A DNA stretch of 32,037 bases from Bacteroidetes/Chlorobi group bacterium MS-B_bin-24. GTDB taxonomy: Bacteria; Bacteroidota; Ignavibacteria; Kapaibacteriales; UBA2268. Position numbers and translations under genes: made by a program. A model generated the notes under the pieces. It did not search any database. It was not told where the DNA came from and saw only the letters and a program-made list of their open reading frames with translations. The stretch spans positions 11,999 through 44,035 of the forward strand of contig RCNO01000019.1 of the NCBI GenBank assembly GCA_003731685.1, written 5' to 3'. Positions 4,746 to 14,028 of the stretch are shown here, one piece after another (positions within the stretch are counted from its first letter, which is position 1; each line of letters opens with the position of its first letter).

Positions 4746-4818
4746 GCCAACATAGCTCAGCTGGTAGAGCAGCTCACTCGTAATGAGCAGGTCGGCGGTT
4801 CGAATCCGCCTGTTGGCT
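4746..4818 (+). tRNA. tRNA-Thr (anticodon CGT)
   Basis: A full cloverleaf can be folded. The acceptor stem pairs GCCAACA (4746-4752) with TGTTGGC (4811-4817), and the discriminator is T4818. The D arm is GCTC-AGCTGGTA-GAGC. The anticodon stem pairs GCTCA (4772-4776) with TGAGC (4784-4788) around loop CTCGTAA, giving anticodon CGT at 4779-4781, which reads ACG (Thr). The T arm is GGCGG-TTCGAAT-CCGCC (4794-4810). CCA is not encoded. The discriminator base is shared with the stop codon of the convergent gene on the other strand. Confidence 0.97.
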
Positions 4819-6023
4819 CAATAATAAAGATGAATTTGGAACGCCCAACGAGTCGATTTTGCCTCCATTGATTTAAAGAATCTATACTCACAATTTGTTT
4901 CGATATAGGGTATTGGGAAATACTTAAACCCTAAAATTAGTGATTGATTATCCAAGTCCCAACTTGTTCGAGGTGTTATTTCAAGCGTGGTTTTTGCGTT
5001 TTCTATTGCAAGGAACGGCACAAAACCACGAAAAGGCGTAAAATAAATTCTATTTATAAAATTGAGTGTTCGACGATAATCCTTCAAGTTTGAATAAGAA
5101 ATTTCGCTCAGAACCGAAAAAAGTTCGAAGAAATTCAATCCAACAAATGAACTCGAATACACAAAATTCCCATTTTTCAGCAATGAAGAACCAACAAATG
5201 AATAAGTTAGAATATCACTGGAAAATGGCGGATAAAAGACAAATTTCAAATTAAAAGTTGGATTGTGCTTGATAACAATTGGAATATTACCAAAAACAGT
5301 AACTTGCGAAAGAAATCTGGAATCGAACATACCCAAGAAAAAATCAAACATCTCCAAATTTCGATAGGAAAATTCCAATCCGAATTCAGAATATTCGGGC
5401 GGAAACAGACTCGATGTATAATCGACCGAGGCAATTCTTCTATCGAATTTAGTCATATCGCAATCCCGCAATCCAAACGAAGGTTGAAACTTCCCAACTT
5501 GAATTTCGGGAAGATATTCCCCAAGCTTAAAATTCAGCGATGACATCCAATTATCCTGTCCTTGAAAAATTATTGGACCAAGATTATATTGGCAATTCAA
5601 CGAAACCCAATCGGCTGGCTTGAATAAAAAGTAAAACCCGGCTTCCATTGGGAAATACCGTCTTTTCGCAAATTCTGTTTTGTGCGAGCGAACAGATTGA
5701 AAACGAAAGTCCATACCATAAGCAAAGCTTTGAGGAAAGTTCAAGCCAACGAGAGTATCACCAAATTGCAAGTCTTTTGCGTAAGTTTCTTTATCGAAAA
5801 GGTCATAAATTTTTTTTACCCAATCGTTGCCGATTGGAAAATGCGAGCCATCGCGCAGATATTTCCACCCAAAATCTGTTCTTATTCCACCTCCTTGCGG
5901 ATTAACGTGGCATTTTGAACATTTGTTTCCTGTTTGCAACGATAAGTCTGGAGTAGAATAAGCAATGTGCAGGACAAAACAATAAATCAAAACACTCCAA
6001 GATATAATAAATACTTTTTTCAT
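4818..6023 (-). CDS. Outer-membrane beta-barrel-like protein with N-terminal CxxCH haem site
   Basis: This 401-residue protein begins with a signal peptide (about residues 1-23). Close behind comes a single c-type haem motif, CSKCH (C35, C38, H39), in the context CHVNPQGGGIRTDFG. The remainder, about 350 residues, has alternating hydrophobic/polar segments rich in Tyr, Phe and Trp. It ends in the aromatic stretch FQIHLYY, as outer-membrane barrels do. I infer a porin-like barrel with a covalently bound haem at its periplasmic end. I cannot identify the substrate or partner. It starts 2 bases after the stop of a monoheme cytochrome c gene, so the two are almost certainly coexpressed. An electron-transfer or haem-dependent sensing role at the outer membrane is inference. 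The stop codon overlaps the last base of the convergent tRNA gene. Confidence 0.7.
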   Translation of the reverse strand: MKKVFIISWSVLIYCFVLHIAYSTPDLSLQTGNKCSKCHVNPQGGGIRTDFGWKYLRDGSHFPIGNDWVKKIYDLFDKETYAKDLQFGDTLVGLNFPQSFAYGMDFRFQSVRSHKTEFAKRRYFPMEAGFYFLFKPADWVSLNCQYNLGPIIFQGQDNWMSSLNFKLGEYLPEIQVGKFQPSFGLRDCDMTKFDRRIASVDYTSSLFPPEYSEFGLEFSYRNLEMFDFFLGMFDSRFLSQVTVFGNIPIVIKHNPTFNLKFVFYPPFSSDILTYSFVGSSLLKNGNFVYSSSFVGLNFFELFSVLSEISYSNLKDYRRTLNFINRIYFTPFRGFVPFLAIENAKTTLEITPRTSWDLDNQSLILGFKYFPIPYIETNCEYRFFKSMEAKSTRWAFQIHLYY

Positions 6024-6025
6024 AA

Positions 6026-6508
6026 TTACTTATGCGGTGGCAACTTCCCAAGTTTCCTTGCTTTCACAACATCTTCGGATGTTACAGATTTATCAATCCC
6101 ATTTAATTCCCGAAACACATACTCTAAAATCAATGCTATCTCTTCGTCCTTTAAATTTTTGTCTACTTCGGTAGTCATTACACCATAGTAAACTTCGCCA
6201 TTAACAACAATTTTCCCGCTACGGCCAAAAAGCATTCCTCGCAACAGCTCAATTTTATCCCCTTTCTGAACATAATCAGAATTTTTTAGCGGGGGATAAA
6301 CACCTTTAATTCCTTTACCATCCTTTCGATGGCATTTGGAACACTGCTCGATGTATAGTTTCTTCCCTTTCTCTTTATCATAAGAAAATGCGGAAAATAT
6401 GACCAAACCAAAAGTCGCAACAGAAAGCAAAAGCCAGATTAAATTCTTTCTCGATTGCCTATTCAACAATACACGCTTTCTTGTATTTTCGAGAAATGAT
6501 TTTTGCAT
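6026..6508 (-). CDS. Monoheme c-type cytochrome, membrane-anchored or exported
   Basis: This 160-residue protein has one hydrophobic segment near its start (about residues 22-42, KNLIWLLLSVATFG...) and then a class I cytochrome c domain. The haem is attached at CSKCH (C56, C59, H60). M111 in YYGVMTTEVD is the likely distal ligand, followed by the usual C-terminal helix (LKDEEIALILEYV). It is therefore exported and acts in the periplasm or at the inner membrane. The ATG at 6508 lies 50 bases inside the preceding lipoprotein gene and has AAGG upstream. A TTG at 6466 overlaps that gene's end by only 8 bases and would give a more typical signal peptide, so the start is uncertain. The partner gene for the haem-barrel protein follows after 2 bases. 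Confidence 0.88.
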   Translation of the reverse strand: MQKSFLENTRKRVLLNRQSRKNLIWLLLSVATFGLVIFSAFSYDKEKGKKLYIEQCSKCHRKDGKGIKGVYPPLKNSDYVQKGDKIELLRGMLFGRSGKIVVNGEVYYGVMTTEVDKNLKDEEIALILEYVFRELNGIDKSVTSEDVVKARKLGKLPPHK

Positions 6509-8312
6509 CTCTTTCTGCCTTTTCAATATCAGGATAACCCCAAAGAACAACTTTATATTTCACTGCTCCATTGTCATATAATCGGACATAATACGACTTG
6601 AAACCATTTTTTTCCCAATTCTCCACCTTTTTTTCCGCCAGCTCTTCGCTTTCAACAGTGTCGACAACAATCGTATATGGATATACAGAAGGCAAAAGCC
6701 AACGAATCTCGACTCTTCTGTTCATCCAAGAAGTTCTTTCGTCATCCTCCTCCATAAACAGCGGATTACTGTTGCCAATCCCTTTGATTTTGATTTGCGA
6801 GGGATTTACACCATTGCTGACCAAAATCCTTTTCACAGAATTAGCCCGAGCGAGGGAAAGCTCGACGGGGTTCTTCATTGATTCGCTCAAACCTGCATTG
6901 CCAATCAGTTCGAGAGAGGAATTCTTACTGCTCCGAAGCAAATTTGTCAAATTGTTCAGCACAGGCAAAAAGGAACTCGAGACGCTTGTGTCGTTTTCGT
7001 TGAAAAGTGCTACTGCTTGGTAATTAATGTAGAACATTCGCTCCTTCAAAGGATAAGAAATAACATCGGAAACATCGTAATAATTTGAATAGGCTCTCAA
7101 TTTCAACAGAACATCGGAGCAGTTACTTGCGTTGTAATTAAATGGGAAGGTGATTGTATAACTATACTTCTTCGATAACAAGATTTCACGAAGGACATCG
7201 ACAATCCTATTAAAATCCCAAGGCAAGTGGTAAAAAATTCCGCCAGTCTTCAAACATAAATATTTATACGCCAAAATAGAAACTTCGTTCCCCAGTCCAA
7301 CGACATAAATTTCGGCTTTCTTGCTGTTTGCTTTTTTTATTACATCATCCAAAAGCACATTAATCGAAGAATTGTCCATCTGATTTGTAAGCATCACAAT
7401 AGCAGTATTCTCATCTTCGACTACATCATCCAGCAAATCGTAAAGTGTTCTATGAACTGCACTAAGTTCAACTTTTGGAGAGAAAACAAGATTTCCCAGT
7501 TCCCAATATGCTTTGTCGAAGCTTTCCAATGGCAATAAAGTATTTCGCTGGACGCCAAAAACCGAAATTGAAAGCTTATCGAAAGACTCGAGAAATTTTA
7601 ATCCATTGACAAGTTGCTCCTTTATATCGGGCAGGAAATTAATAATAGAATAATCAATAAGCACGAAAAGGTTTAACTTTTTGCCATAAGTCAATTCCTT
7701 TGGAAAAGCATAAACATAGGATTTCAAGCCCAACTTTGGACATTCCTGAACGGCTTCCAATTTAATATCGCTGGAATACTTGTATAAATCATATATCAAA
7801 TTACCAGCAGTATCCAGTATTCCAAAGTTAATAGAACAAGAGTCAAGATTGTTGGAAAAAGACACTCTGAAAATTTTTAATTGAACGGCTTTATCAAATG
7901 AATTCGACACGAAACCACTTAAAAATTTTGTTTTGACATTATTCTTTATGCCTTTCAAATCGATTGTTCCGAGTGGTCCTCTTTGAATTGGTGTCTTTTG
8001 CTCTTCTTTTGTTTCTTTTGGTCGAACAAGAACGTAAACCGATTGAACTAAACTCTCCCCTTTATCATTGTATGCTGTAACATCAACTCTGGTTGAATTA
8101 AAGGGTTTGAGCAAAAAAGAATCAACAGGATTGAATTCCCTTTCTACGCTTGGCAACTTCACATACGAAGCATTCGCAAACTTCCAGTGAATCCAAACAC
8201 TGTCCCCTTGTTCAATTTCCTGTAATTCTGAAATTCTCTCGACTGTGATTTTTGGGGAAACACAGGAAATAACCAAAGCAGAAACAAAAAGAATTAAAAA
8301 TAGTTTTTTCAT
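6459..8312 (-). CDS. Lipoprotein with VWA-like, OmpA-like and SPOR-like regions
   Basis: This 617-residue predicted outer-membrane or periplasmic lipoprotein has a signal peptide ending in lipobox VISC (C17). This start gives a clean lipoprotein signal and lies 4 bases after the ClpB-like stop; an upstream in-frame ATG at 8345 does not. Residues about 24-97 look like an Ig-like domain. A von Willebrand A-like domain spans about 213-390 (LFVLIDYSIINF, AIVMLTNQMDNSS, AEIYVVGLG). Its MIDAS is DYSII rather than DxSxS, so metal binding is doubtful. An OmpA-like domain follows at about 440-545 (ELSLARANSVKRIL, ending NRRVEIRWL). A SPOR-like module occupies the last 70 residues or so. The last two regions point to peptidoglycan contact. 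It is probably a scaffold tying the outer membrane to the wall, in the same unit as the cytochromes. Confidence 0.8.
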   Translation of the reverse strand: MKKLFLILFVSALVISCVSPKITVERISELQEIEQGDSVWIHWKFANASYVKLPSVEREFNPVDSFLLKPFNSTRVDVTAYNDKGESLVQSVYVLVRPKETKEEQKTPIQRGPLGTIDLKGIKNNVKTKFLSGFVSNSFDKAVQLKIFRVSFSNNLDSCSINFGILDTAGNLIYDLYKYSSDIKLEAVQECPKLGLKSYVYAFPKELTYGKKLNLFVLIDYSIINFLPDIKEQLVNGLKFLESFDKLSISVFGVQRNTLLPLESFDKAYWELGNLVFSPKVELSAVHRTLYDLLDDVVEDENTAIVMLTNQMDNSSINVLLDDVIKKANSKKAEIYVVGLGNEVSILAYKYLCLKTGGIFYHLPWDFNRIVDVLREILLSKKYSYTITFPFNYNASNCSDVLLKLRAYSNYYDVSDVISYPLKERMFYINYQAVALFNENDTSVSSSFLPVLNNLTNLLRSSKNSSLELIGNAGLSESMKNPVELSLARANSVKRILVSNGVNPSQIKIKGIGNSNPLFMEEDDERTSWMNRRVEIRWLLPSVYPYTIVVDTVESEELAEKKVENWEKNGFKSYYVRLYDNGAVKYKVVLWGYPDIEKAERDAKIISRKYKKACIVE

Positions 8313-8316
8313 AGAC

Positions 8317-9636
8317 TCAGGATTTGGAAAATACAAATTCCCCATTCATTGAACTTATGCGTATTTTATCGCCCGAAACAAATTTGCCTTCGAGAATCAA
8401 CAGGGCAAGCTTATCGACTATATAATGCTGGATAGCACGTTTTAAAGGTCGGGCTCCAAATTGTGGGTCGAAACCAATCGAGGCAAGCAACTCCATAGCC
8501 TTGTCGTCCAATTCAAAATCAATTCCGCGTTCTTTCGATTTTTCTCGAACTTTGTTTAGTTGCAAAATTGCTATCTGGAATATTTCTTCCTTCGTTAATG
8601 GCTTGAAGACAATAATATCATCGATACGGTTTAAGAATTCGGGTCTCAGCCGTTTTTTAAGCAGTTCAAAAACTTCGTCTTTGAGCCTATCCATAATTTC
8701 TTGGCGGTTTTCGGGCGTAATGTACGACAGTCGCTCTTGAATGAGTTCTGTCCCAAGATTCGAGGTCATTATAATAATTGTGTTTTTAAAATTAACAACA
8801 CGACCCTTGCTATCAGTTAGTCTTCCATCGTCAAGTACCTGCAAAAGGATATTGAATACATCGGGATGTGCTTTTTCGATTTCATCGAGCAGAACAACTG
8901 AATACGGTCGCCTTCGAACAGATTCCGTAAGTTGCCCCCCTTCTTCGTAACCCACATATCCCGGTGGTGCTCCAATCAGACGAGAAACGCTAAACTTCTC
9001 CATATACTCGCTCATATCGATTCGAACCATAGCGTTCTCGTCATCGAAAAGGAATTCGGCTAAAGCACGGGCAAGTTCGGTTTTACCAACACCAGTACTA
9101 CCAAGAAAAATGAAGGAGCCAATAGGACGATTAACATCTTGCAAACCAACACGGGAACGCCGAATAGCATTCGCTACCGCTCGAACTGCTTCCTCTTGGT
9201 CGACCAGCCTTTGATGTATCCTCTCCTCCATCCTCAACAATTTAGTCCTTTCGCTTTCCAGCATTCTTTGGACGGGAATCCCAGTCCACTTGGAAACAAT
9301 CTCGGCAATATCTTCGGCATCGACTTCTTCTTTGAGCATTTTGCCTTCGCGTTGCAATTCCTGAAGTTGGCTATTCACTTCGTTCAACTTTTTTTGCAAT
9401 TCGTGTATCAATCCATAACGAATTTCAGCAACTTTGGCAAGATTTCCTTGACGTTCGTATTCATCTGCTTGCAACCGAAGATTTTCGATTTGCGACTTAT
9501 ATTCCCGTATTTGCTGAATCAGTCTTTTCTCCTGCTCCCATCGTGCTCGAAGTTTATCCCTTTGCGACTTTAGCTCTTCGAGTTCCTTTTCGATTTCAAT
9601 TAACCTTTGCTTTGTTGCAACAATTGTATCATCCAT
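8317..9636 (-). CDS. Stand-alone C-terminal half of ClpB (partial M domain plus second AAA+ module)
   Basis: Full-length ClpB is an AAA+ disaggregase of about 860 residues. This gene encodes only 439. It starts inside the coiled-coil middle domain (residues 1-105) and then carries a complete second nucleotide-binding domain: Walker A GSTGVGKT (179-186), pore loop GYVGY (226-230), Walker B VVLLDE (247-252), sensor-1 region IIIMTSN, arginine-finger region RPEFLNRID and sensor-2 GARPLKRAI. All ATPase motifs are intact, so it may be a functional single-ring ATPase. It lacks the N-domain, the first AAA+ ring and the first part of the M domain. The break is not a window effect: an in-frame TGA lies at 9643-9645, two codons before the ATG, and the DNA beyond is an AT-rich spacer with the terminator of the next unit. 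It heads the operon with the lipoprotein and two haem proteins. A decaying remnant is the alternative. Confidence 0.9.
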   Translation of the reverse strand: MDDTIVATKQRLIEIEKELEELKSQRDKLRARWEQEKRLIQQIREYKSQIENLRLQADEYERQGNLAKVAEIRYGLIHELQKKLNEVNSQLQELQREGKMLKEEVDAEDIAEIVSKWTGIPVQRMLESERTKLLRMEERIHQRLVDQEEAVRAVANAIRRSRVGLQDVNRPIGSFIFLGSTGVGKTELARALAEFLFDDENAMVRIDMSEYMEKFSVSRLIGAPPGYVGYEEGGQLTESVRRRPYSVVLLDEIEKAHPDVFNILLQVLDDGRLTDSKGRVVNFKNTIIIMTSNLGTELIQERLSYITPENRQEIMDRLKDEVFELLKKRLRPEFLNRIDDIIVFKPLTKEEIFQIAILQLNKVREKSKERGIDFELDDKAMELLASIGFDPQFGARPLKRAIQHYIVDKLALLILEGKFVSGDKIRISSMNGEFVFSKS

Positions 9637-9715
9637 AGTTTTTCAAATATTATCACACAGATAAAAACTAAAATATGAAAAAAATTTTAAAATAGTAATT
9701 CTTTTATACTTTTTT

Positions 9716-9751
9716 AAAAACAAAAAAGGGAAGCAACTCGGCTTCCCTTTT
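9716..9751 (-). terminator. Rho-independent terminator after the small lipoprotein gene
   Basis: A perfect 11-bp stem pairs AAAAGGGAAGC (9724-9734) with GCTTCCCTTTT (9741-9751) around a 6-base loop. On the minus strand it is followed by TTTTTTGTTTTT. It ends the 9772-10446 gene and insulates it from the ClpB-fragment operon, which must therefore have its own promoter within 9637-9715. Confidence 0.9.
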
Positions 9752-11483: not shown

Positions 11484-13985
11484 TTATCTAATCAAAATAG
11501 TAGTTCCAACATATCTACCTTCATCAAATTGCAAAATTAAGAACAAAATACCTTGATAAGCATTATTAATTTTTATAACACGCAAGTTGTTGCTAAATGG
11601 GATATTGCTTAAATAATCAGCAAAAATTTGCCTTCCTAACAAGTCGTAGATACTAATTCTTGGATTTTTAGGAAGTAAGGAGTTGTCAACTTCAAAAGTT
11701 ATTTCATTATCTACGGGATTGAATTTTACATTAAAAATGTAACCATTTGTTGCTAAATCTTCGAACGGCACTTCTCCAACAGCTTGGCAGGAATCTATCG
11801 AAAAGACAGAATCACTTCGGGCTAAAGTTGTCTCGGAAAAAGTTGGTTTAATACGCACAAGACAACGATTTGAAATCTTGTTTGGTATCTTCCAAATAAA
11901 TGCACCAAGCTTTGCATCAATATTACCAAGAGCAAGCTTTCGCCAGTTGGCTCCTTCATCGGTTGAGTATTCCAATTGAATTTTATTTATGTATGAACTT
12001 TCCCATTTGACTGTATATCCTGCGCCAACACACATCACCTCGCCACCCTTTGGATATATAATTTTTCCATTAGGGACTCCTATCTTAAAAATAGGACTTT
12101 CGGAAACAATTTTGCCGTCTTTTGATTTAACACGGAATTTGCATTCGTCCGACTGAATTTGCGGGGCAGTCATTTCGTAATATTTATTCAAATAATCTTC
12201 GGCTAATGTTGTAAAGTTCTTGCCACCGTCGGTCGAAAATTGCACAGTAAATATATCGACCAGAGTTGCTTCCCAAGAAAGAGCAACTGTTTCGCCCTGT
12301 GCAAATTCATCATTTTCCTTGGGGGATTGAACAGTAATGGTTTTGGGCATAATCGAAAACGGACGCATTGAAGTGTCGGCAACGTTTGGATTGCCTTTAT
12401 CACGAATGTAAATTAACCCCCTCGTTGTCTTTATATTTGGAAGTTGCCAGTAGTAAATCGAATCGGTGGCAGGAACATTATCGGCTAACAAAGACCAATT
12501 TGCACCATTGTCGCTGGAGAAGAAAATCGTAAGGTAATTAACTTTTGCCGAAGTCCAACGAATCGGCAAAACCTCTTCCGCAATATATGTTTTATCACCA
12601 AGCGGATTCAACAATGAAATGTACGGAGATGAAGCTTGTTTAACACAACTCGACCTTTCGGCAGCAGAGCGAGCCAATGGTAACTCTCTGGGATGGAAAA
12701 TCAATTGGACAGAATGAGTAGAATTTGTTAAATGGCAATAGCTCATTATCGTACCGGGTCTTGGAATTGGATTTCCAGTTTTTATACACGCATCGCCAAC
12801 ACCATAGGTTTGCCCAGTAACACAAGTGTCTATCATATTTGGCTGCCAGTAGCAATTATGTGTGTGGGGCAAACTAAAATTATGCCCCATTTCATGGGTG
12901 GCAACATTCACATCCCAAGTGTAGTTCAAAGTTGGATATGTTGCATTGCCACGTATGCCAAGCACACAATAGCCCCAGTCTCTATTGCAAAGGCTGCCAT
13001 AATAAGGGGTTCCACCAAAAGAAATACCAGCAACAATTTCATTTGCAGGTTGGCTTGCAAGATTAGCAAACAAAACAGTTAAAGCCCTATCAATTGTTTT
13101 GCCTTTCCAAATGCTAGGCATTTTCTGTAACTTTTCCGATAGGTTAGCTGTCCCTGTATACGGGTCTTCCCAAGAATCTTCCCAAACAACGACATAGCCA
13201 ATATAAAGCCGAACATTGAAAAATTCTTGGTAAATTTTCGAGGATTGTGCAATAACAGCAGTAATATAAGCAATTGCGGGCTGGGAGCTCCCAAAAATCG
13301 AAAAGAAATCGTAAGTACCTTCGCAGGCAAGCTTCACTTCGAGCAAAGGCTTGCTGGCAAGTGGAACATCATCCTTGTAATATTTAATATAATCATCAAG
13401 TTCGTTTGAATTCCCAGAGTAATCTTCGGTGTAACAAGAAAAAATTTTGTTCTCATTAAGAACTTGCGAATTGGAAACTGTAAGAATGTGATTCCCTTCT
13501 TTCGAATCTTTTTGTGGTGAAATTGTATAAACAATCCCTGATTCTGTCTGCATTGTCCCAATTAACCCAAATTCAGTAAAGTTCATAAAAACAAAAGAAT
13601 TTTCCTGCCCAGAAATTTTCCCCGAAAGGCACATTAAAATTGGTGCTTTTGTTCGAATTAATCCATTCTTTGTACCACGATAAAACTCGGTATTTTGGTC
13701 AAAAGGAATATCAGCTTTCTCCAAAACCAAATCAACTACTTGTGATTGAACGAATGGGAAATTCATAATTTTCACTTTCTCATAATCTGCGGTGAAAACT
13801 TCTCGGGCAACTGAAGGAACAATTTGAAATGTAACATTTGGATAGGCTGTTAAAGTCCTATCGCTGGACACATTTCGAAAAAGTGACTTCGAATCAATTA
13901 CTAAGTCCTTTGAATAAACATTAGAAATTACTAATCCAATGAGAACAAAGGAAAATAATAATTTGGTTAAAGAAAAACTTTTCAT
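11484..13985 (-). CDS. Secreted metzincin-type (reprolysin-like) metalloprotease with T9SS sorting domain
   Basis: This 833-residue exported protein has a signal peptide (MKSFSLTKLLFSFVLIGLV...). The ATG at 13985 has GAGG upstream; an ATG five codons earlier is less likely. The zinc site is HEMGHNFSLPH (H364, E365, H368, H374), with Met-turn TIMSYCH about 50 residues later. The metzincin glycine at position 8 of HExxHxxGxxH is serine here. After the protease domain come three roughly 85-residue Ig-like repeats, each with a phrase of the type FSSDNGANWSLL, FSTDGGKNFTTL or YSTDEGANWRKL. The last 80 residues form a T9SS C-terminal sorting domain (VKFNPVDNEITFEV, ISIYDLLGRQIF). It should be secreted or attached at the cell surface and degrade proteins. 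It forms its own unit, ended by a terminator. Confidence 0.9.
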   Translation of the reverse strand: MKSFSLTKLLFSFVLIGLVISNVYSKDLVIDSKSLFRNVSSDRTLTAYPNVTFQIVPSVAREVFTADYEKVKIMNFPFVQSQVVDLVLEKADIPFDQNTEFYRGTKNGLIRTKAPILMCLSGKISGQENSFVFMNFTEFGLIGTMQTESGIVYTISPQKDSKEGNHILTVSNSQVLNENKIFSCYTEDYSGNSNELDDYIKYYKDDVPLASKPLLEVKLACEGTYDFFSIFGSSQPAIAYITAVIAQSSKIYQEFFNVRLYIGYVVVWEDSWEDPYTGTANLSEKLQKMPSIWKGKTIDRALTVLFANLASQPANEIVAGISFGGTPYYGSLCNRDWGYCVLGIRGNATYPTLNYTWDVNVATHEMGHNFSLPHTHNCYWQPNMIDTCVTGQTYGVGDACIKTGNPIPRPGTIMSYCHLTNSTHSVQLIFHPRELPLARSAAERSSCVKQASSPYISLLNPLGDKTYIAEEVLPIRWTSAKVNYLTIFFSSDNGANWSLLADNVPATDSIYYWQLPNIKTTRGLIYIRDKGNPNVADTSMRPFSIMPKTITVQSPKENDEFAQGETVALSWEATLVDIFTVQFSTDGGKNFTTLAEDYLNKYYEMTAPQIQSDECKFRVKSKDGKIVSESPIFKIGVPNGKIIYPKGGEVMCVGAGYTVKWESSYINKIQLEYSTDEGANWRKLALGNIDAKLGAFIWKIPNKISNRCLVRIKPTFSETTLARSDSVFSIDSCQAVGEVPFEDLATNGYIFNVKFNPVDNEITFEVDNSLLPKNPRISIYDLLGRQIFADYLSNIPFSNNLRVIKINNAYQGILFLILQFDEGRYVGTTILIR

Positions 13986-14028
13986 TTTAAACCTCAACAT
14001 TCAACAAACATATATAGACAAAAAAATT

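Follow-up and report, generated by a model that had tools for sequence, protein, structure and literature searches.

A probable two-gene ClpB disaggregase divided at the M-domain distal loop in Kapaibacteriales

ClpB/Hsp104 is the model two-ring AAA+ machine, and it is treated as one polypeptide per subunit. Human Skd3 (CLPB) carries one ClpB-type AAA+ ring and has no first ring. One ClpB report (PMC3887210) describes how the M domain's distal loop, which links helix 1 to helix 2, contacts NBD2, a contact that is suggested to be autoinhibitory, and how the A428W variant no longer cooperates with DnaK. In addition, a second report (PMC4239642) describes NBD1-M and NBD2 as fragments that can be produced separately, and it cites a study according to whose title ClpB chaperone activity does not require covalent linkage (Beinker et al. 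2005). In the literature that we searched, judged by titles and abstract openings among the matches listed, we found no description of a natural split ClpB.

Our analysis concerns a window (the whole stretch of DNA analysed) of 32,037 nucleotides from Bacteroidetes/Chlorobi group bacterium MS-B_bin-24 (assembly GCA_003731685.1, contig RCNO01000019.1, positions 11,999 to 44,035), and coordinates below refer to it unless another locus is named. It contains a gene for the C-terminal half of ClpB, hereafter the C-half, with the following features:

8317..9636, (-) strand: clpB C-half gene, 439 aa, ATG start (open reading frame, alignments, TIGR03346, and Pfam)
9724..9751, (-) strand: intrinsic terminator-like hairpin that belongs to the upstream gene (one found against a shuffle mean of 0.1)
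9349..9633, (-) strand: M-domain helix 2 (residues 2-63) and helix 3 (residues 66-96) in an AlphaFold2 model (mean pLDDT 83.4)
9079..9102, (-) strand: NBD2 Walker A, GSTGVGKT, residues 179-186, K185 invariant in 47/47 (C-half alignment)
8881..8895, (-) strand: NBD2 Walker B, VLLDE, residues 248-252, E252 invariant in 47/47 (C-half alignment)
8626..8628, (-) strand: NBD2 arginine finger R337, invariant in 47/47 (C-half alignment)
8449..8457, (-) strand: NBD2 sensor 2, GAR, residues 394-396, R396 invariant in 47/47 (C-half alignment)

The C-half product comprises the M domain from helix 2 onward, NBD2, and the D2-small domain. Pfam matched AAA_2 and ClpB_D2-small, and found neither Clp_N nor a first ring. 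The protein aligns with residues 434-847 of Escherichia coli ClpB, leaving its last 11 residues outside the alignment, and with residues 428-840 of Thermus thermophilus ClpB. Walker A and B, sensor 1, the arginine finger, sensor 2, and the pore-loop tyrosine are invariant in 47 aligned C-halves, that of the window included. In the AlphaFold2 model, the N terminus coincides with the start of helix 2, the helix beginning at residue 2. An in-frame TGA lies two codons 5' of the ATG, and the terminator-like hairpin of the upstream gene indicates that the C-half has its own upstream region. These results uphold much of an earlier, sequence-only reading, which had described part of an M domain joined to a full second ring with intact ATPase motifs, the absence of the N domain and first ring, the stop codon and the foreign terminator, and a gene not cut by the edge of the window. 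The gene is real and intact. As a separate observation, a threonine occupies residue 8 (9613-9615), at the start of helix 2, in 41/47 split proteins; the same position in 21 full-length ClpBs holds threonine in 4 and serine in 9. This threonine is perhaps a new helix N-cap.

The gene had also been called stand-alone, a description that did not survive inspection of the genome, because the complementary N-terminal half (N-half) is encoded there as a separate gene. When this draft of 109 contigs was searched with AAA_lid_9, the lid of the first ring, three places were found, one with an 865-aa frame and two, on different contigs, with a 499-aa open frame. Within the latter, the N-half runs for 440 aa from its ATG to a normal stop, sits on contigs other than that of the C-half, and comprises the N domain, the first ring (NBD1), and M-domain helix 1. 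The two copies of the N-half stretch (genome G000, contigs C4 and C24; loci L224 and L225) share 11,501 aligned bases with one mismatch and one ambiguous base; this is probably assembly redundancy, the alternative being a recent duplication.

The two halves complement each other closely. N-half residues 1-433 align with E. coli ClpB 1-433 and C-half residues 5-428 with 434-847, and the two alignments abut end to end. Against TIGR03346, the NCBI (NCBIfam) ClpB model of 853 positions, the N-half matches positions 1-428 with 682.0 bits and the C-half positions 430-852 with 635.3 bits. Their sum, 1317.3 bits, exceeds the cut-off of 1232.1 bits, which was set for one protein, while each half alone falls below it. 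This exposes an annotation gap, in that neither half passes the ClpB model; a 2007 survey by Gupta and Lorenzini (PMC1887533) bears on this gap. The N domain, NBD1, M domain, and NBD2 are thus all present, spread over two genes, and the best PDB sequence matches of both products are ClpB, not ClpC or ClpA. A search of the genome with the C-half recovered, apart from the query gene, only the 865-aa gene and a single short match of low score, with no full-length ClpB seen in that search. The 865-aa gene is a ClpC by its best PDB match (945 bits, versus 756 for ClpB); it scores 972.6 bits against the ClpB cut-off of 1232.1 and is 53% identical to the C-half. An HSP70/DnaK gene is present in the same genome.

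Across the order, the halves tend to occur together. We sampled 60 genomes, the window's own and 59 relatives, from 10 families of one order. Both halves were found in 52/60 and neither in 4/60 (G005, G029, G030, and G036, the last a 100% complete genome), with the N-half only in 3/60 (G014, G026, and G034) and the C-half only in 1/60 (G033), a tally that was read by eye and drew on matches listed down to an E value of about 1e-3 in the C-half search. A broken or frameshifted half was scored as present if one or more of its pieces, at 59% identity or above, lay outside the ClpC frame; contig-broken or frameshifted halves occur, for example, in G010, G011, G014, G017, G031, G037, G046, and G054. 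Counted singly, the C-half is found in 53/60 genomes and the N-half in 55/60, and their joint occurrence is significant (Fisher p = 0.0003). Distances among N-halves and among C-halves are correlated over 47 pairs (Mantel r = 0.756, 0/1000 permutations), a figure to which shared species history also contributes. Searches with both halves returned full-length ClpB in 0/60 genomes of the order, so the relatives with an undivided gene, which the sequence-only reading had named as the sign of an artefact or a recent pseudogene, were not encountered.

There are exceptions to this pairing. The C-half occurs without the N-half in G136, a 100% complete genome, and in G099, which counts against tight coupling. 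Among the matches listed for families f15, f22, and f36, four genomes have the N-half only (G218, G223, G283, and G319) and three the C-half only (G226, G208, and G369). Among the one-half genomes, many are drafts in fragments, although the case of G136 is hard to set aside. The single half in about a dozen of the genomes sampled, along with a complete ATPase domain in each half, could be understood if each half worked alone, the C-half as a single-ring unfoldase in the manner of human Skd3/CLPB and the N-half as a separate ATPase. We regard this as unlikely. It accords poorly with the predominance of genomes that have both halves (52/60) or neither (4/60), and it would leave no full-length ClpB to do the job of ClpB. 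The repurposed single-ring unfoldase of the sequence-only reading is disfavoured, since a partner half with the first ring is encoded and catalytic residues are kept in both.

The physical separation of the halves is not a product of assembly. An artefact or binning error near position 9640 might be suspected of a 109-contig draft in which the N-half appears in two near-identical stretches, and a misassembled join had been flagged at that place. Yet, in all four of the genus's other species the match to the C-half begins at residue 1, with frames 440-456 aa long; one of these species has a single-contig genome in which the halves lie 71 kb apart. Moreover, the same gene boundary recurs in independent genomes, among them the single-contig G002, G045, G037, G196, G289, G272, and G236. 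The halves are separate genes in nine single-contig genomes: on the circle, their distances in these seven are 71 kb (G002, same genus), 785, 324, 82, 249, 96, and 1644 kb, whereas they are 22 kb apart in G280 and 2061 kb apart along the contig in G313, a value not corrected for circularity. Separate and distant half genes in single-contig genomes exclude a chimeric assembly, and we give an artefact practically no credence.

Catalytic residues are retained on both sides of the split. Scored by alignment-column checks, 47/47 pairs showed no variation at ten catalytic or pore residues, four in the first ring (K212, E279, R331, and R332 of the N-half) and six in the second (K185, Y227, E252, N293, R337, and R396 of the C-half). 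The NBD1 pore-loop residue 251 is phenylalanine in 34 and tyrosine in 13. Within the genus, orthologues gave pN of 0.06-0.15 versus pS of 0.72-0.92, with synonymous sites near saturation, and both halves are under purifying selection there. These observations speak to the suggestion that the C-half is a pseudogene or a remnant in decay, retained because it heads an operon. The gene is shorter than a textbook ClpB and stands first in its run, and single relatives have irregular copies. The C-half of G010 has one internal stop, and that of the single-contig G037 lies in two overlapping frames (L223:4687-6046) with a frameshift inside NBD2, each of them either damage or a sequence error; the genus mates of G037, G053 and G213, have the C-half in one frame. 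In G216, none of ATG, GTG, or TTG stands where the C-half (L209:2399-3736) should begin, unlike in its family mates, which points to a frameshift there or a sequence error. Against decay, the frame is open and the catalytic residues are kept in sampled members of every one of the order's 10 families and of 7 families besides, and purifying selection acts within the genus. A remnant is accordingly very improbable.

The chain is cut at one precise place. In all split forms examined, the break falls in the M-domain loop that joins helix 1 to helix 2. Over 47 pairs, the N-half ends 0-12 residues past the equivalent of E. coli residue 433, and in the C-half frame 3-12 residues come ahead of the conserved T-x-x-R-L of helix 2. 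A full-length relative, modelled with a mean pLDDT of 78.2, has helix 1 at residues 412-432, a turn at 433-436, and helix 2 at 437-494, and the break maps between its residues 434 and 439. That the two parts abut exactly might recall halves rejoined after transcription or translation, through a split intein or RNA trans-splicing. But each half has its own stop, and ATG opens 46/47 N-halves (GTG in that of G028) and 46/47 C-halves, giving a usual start codon in 47/47 and 46/47, respectively. Furthermore, with 0-12 residues after helix 1 and 3-12 before the conserved part of helix 2, there is no room for an intein, and rejoining has little to recommend it as an explanation.

Sequence conservation extends right up to the cut. 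Both helix sequences of the M coiled coil are kept, and helices 2-3 are modelled in the single-chain model of the C-half. When 47 split proteins were compared with 21 full-length ones, sets that differ in make-up, mean pairwise identity was 0.75 versus 0.72 for helix 1, in the same register, and 0.49 versus 0.46 for the start of helix 2, dropping to 0.06 and 0.11 in the tails beyond the break. Helix 1 is as conserved as in full-length ClpB and hence not a useless dangling helix. This is a further difficulty for halves that work alone, in which helices 1 and 2 would each be without a partner helix.

Our results reveal two complementary intact genes with one cut site, whose halves are mostly kept together across the order, and a split that is old and conserved. 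On the evidence of sequence, these genes very probably encode a divided ClpB (Hsp100) disaggregase that reassembles non-covalently into a two-tier disaggregase. Gene 1 encodes the N domain, NBD1, and M helix 1, and gene 2 encodes NBD2 with the remainder of the M domain. The two polypeptides would hold together non-covalently, with helix 1 of the N-half packed against helix 2 of the C-half, for which the artificially divided Thermus ClpB offers a precedent of non-covalent assembly. Six copies of each chain could then form a two-tier ATPase ring that would thread aggregated proteins, working with DnaK. The halves are unlinked in most genomes, and co-expression from different places would therefore be needed. 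We looked for a shared heat-shock operator in upstream stretches of up to 250 bp, from 47 genes for each half and from 21 full-length genes, and found no CIRCE-like site (at most 4 mismatches).

In the window, the C-half heads a run of genes on the same strand:

6459..8312, (-) strand: OmpA-domain lipoprotein, 617 aa, 4 bp 3' of the C-half stop (lipoprotein by signal sequence, by eye)
6026..6550, (-) strand: cytochrome c, 174 aa, same gene run (Pfam)
4818..6023, (-) strand: 401-aa protein with a CxxCH haem-binding motif and no Pfam match (sequence)

The association of the C-half with an envelope and haem operon was confirmed in part. An OmpA-lipoprotein-like gene lies 3' of the C-half, the same truncated gene, in 15/27 loci and in at least one sampled member of 9/10 families of the order. 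Outside the genus, these lipoprotein-like genes are only 24-29% identical, and across the 27 loci none was detected in f13 or f3. The two haem genes adjoin the C-half here, but beside it they were detected within the genus only. Linkage to the lipoprotein is thus real, though secondary. The C-half is also divergent from plsY-gpsA in 15/27 loci of the group formed by f13 and the window's own order, and in 0/9 of f1. Elsewhere in the window, an 838-aa reprolysin-like metallopeptidase (11484-14000, (-) strand) has a weak match to a type IX secretion tail.

Both split and full-length forms occur beyond the order. In 197 genomes of the class, among the matches listed, split frames occur in the window's own order and in f13, f15, f19, and f22. 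Full-length frames occur among the matches listed in f12, f14, f16, f18 (which we take to be Melioribacter-like), f20, f21, f23-f25, and f28-f30, and also in f11, f26, and f27. In 198 genomes of the phylum, among the matches listed, f36 has the C-half in 41/43 (frames of 440-565 aa) and the N-half in 42/43, and both halves occur in f34 (2/2) and f49 (4/4). Families f36 and f34 look to us like green sulfur bacteria, presumably Chlorobiaceae and a Chloroherpeton-like group, respectively. Chlorobaculum tepidum, from what looks like the same family as f36, is represented in Swiss-Prot by a pair of short ClpB entries, each about 440 aa long and designated "probable ClpB", which are not known to be treated as halves of one machine; these probably reflect the same split as the one described here. 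In a scan of named genomes, 80 loci were kept, of which, among the matches listed, only L085 and L086 have the split form; the other 78 have a full-length frame, a frame without the N domain (L097 and L163), or one cut at a contig end. The ClpB frames of L097 and L163, both from Prevotella, are 737 and 755 aa long, and their match begins at N-half residue 159, so the N domain seems absent.

The surroundings of full-length genes suggest what preceded the split. A dnaK gene lies upstream of full-length clpB in eight families of the class, with no or only short open reading frames between them in f12, f14, f16, f21, f23, f25, and f29 and two larger ones in f24. It is also near clpB in the outgroup f31, and HSP70 was confirmed by Pfam for f12, f16, f24, and f31. 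In the flanks looked at, dnaK was not seen beside clpB of f18, f20, f28, and f30. Unlike many full-length relatives, none of the C-halves examined has dnaK beside it. These gene neighbourhoods suggest that a full-length clpB beside dnaK was the ancestral state.

The gene was probably divided more than once. On a 93-row tree from a quick search with SH-aLRT support only, the split label requires 4 changes, 2 of which are forced by well-supported branches. A single clade for all split rows was rejected (p-AU = 0.019), whereas one for the split rows of the window's class only was not (p = 0.302), and two or more independent fissions are therefore likely. In f22 (L206-L209), the halves are co-oriented with five opposite-strand genes between them, as in an interrupted gene; the gap is about 5.8 kb in 3/4 genomes looked at, while in G074 two additional genes bring it to 7.6 kb. 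By eye, the intervening genes are a TPR/histidine kinase, a glycosyltransferase, an epimerase, a methyltransferase, and a membrane protein. Counting against separate origins, the C-half is near gpsA-plsY both in the group of f13 and the window's order (15/27) and in f36 (2/2), where gpsA and plsY were confirmed by Pfam, although the pair lies on opposite sides of the C-half in the two groups. This shared vicinity, seen in distant groups (L186:7001-9257 in f36; L085, L213, and L285), hints at an older common location of the C-half.

Two further observations concern full-length genes. Longer distal loops resembling the tails of split halves occur in full-length L173 and L174 (f20) and L176 (f23), and are shown for L174 and L176; such long-loop ClpBs may be a pre-fission step or a re-fusion. 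An apparent tandem split in G197 (f18) was rejected, because in this single-contig genome clpB (L172:3964-6587) is broken at M helix 1 by a one-base frameshift close to an A-run, which may be a sequencing error, and the site offers a TTG but no ATG; the genome was labelled "tandem" and left out of the split count.

Position of the cut invites a tentative proposal about control, which we put forward as possible rather than probable. ClpB may have undergone fission more than once and always at the M-domain distal loop, yielding a hetero-oligomer with altered control, either de-repressed or tuned by subunit exchange, and with independent supply of the two rings. If so, the regulatory contact between the distal loop and NBD2 would fall between two separate chains. 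A428 is kept in 46/47 N-halves and E432 in 47/47, and PDB titles include an E. coli ClpB E432A structure alongside one of the hyperactive mutant Y503D. A natural two-chain ClpB, cut at one precise loop over deep evolutionary time, makes open questions testable, including the need for covalent coupling of the rings and the role of the distal loop in repression and in coupling to DnaK.

Compared with known systems, the split ClpB shares with ClpB/Hsp104 (TIGR03346; E. coli and T. thermophilus) the same domains in the same order, the motifs of both rings, the M helices, and, when summed, the family score. It differs in being two genes and two polypeptides, in a chain that is open at the distal loop, and in the lack of dnaK beside the C-halves examined. 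Human CLPB/Skd3 is reported to be a protein disaggregase, and the split C-half likewise has a ClpB-type ring; unlike Skd3, which carries an ankyrin domain and lacks a partner half, the C-half has M-domain helices and a partner gene. Artificially divided T. thermophilus ClpB, like the natural form, consists of two chains with one AAA+ ring each. The laboratory NBD1-M construct (residues 141-534 in PMC4239642), however, retains the M domain with NBD1, while the natural cut leaves NBD1 with helix 1 alone and places the remaining M domain on the NBD2 chain.
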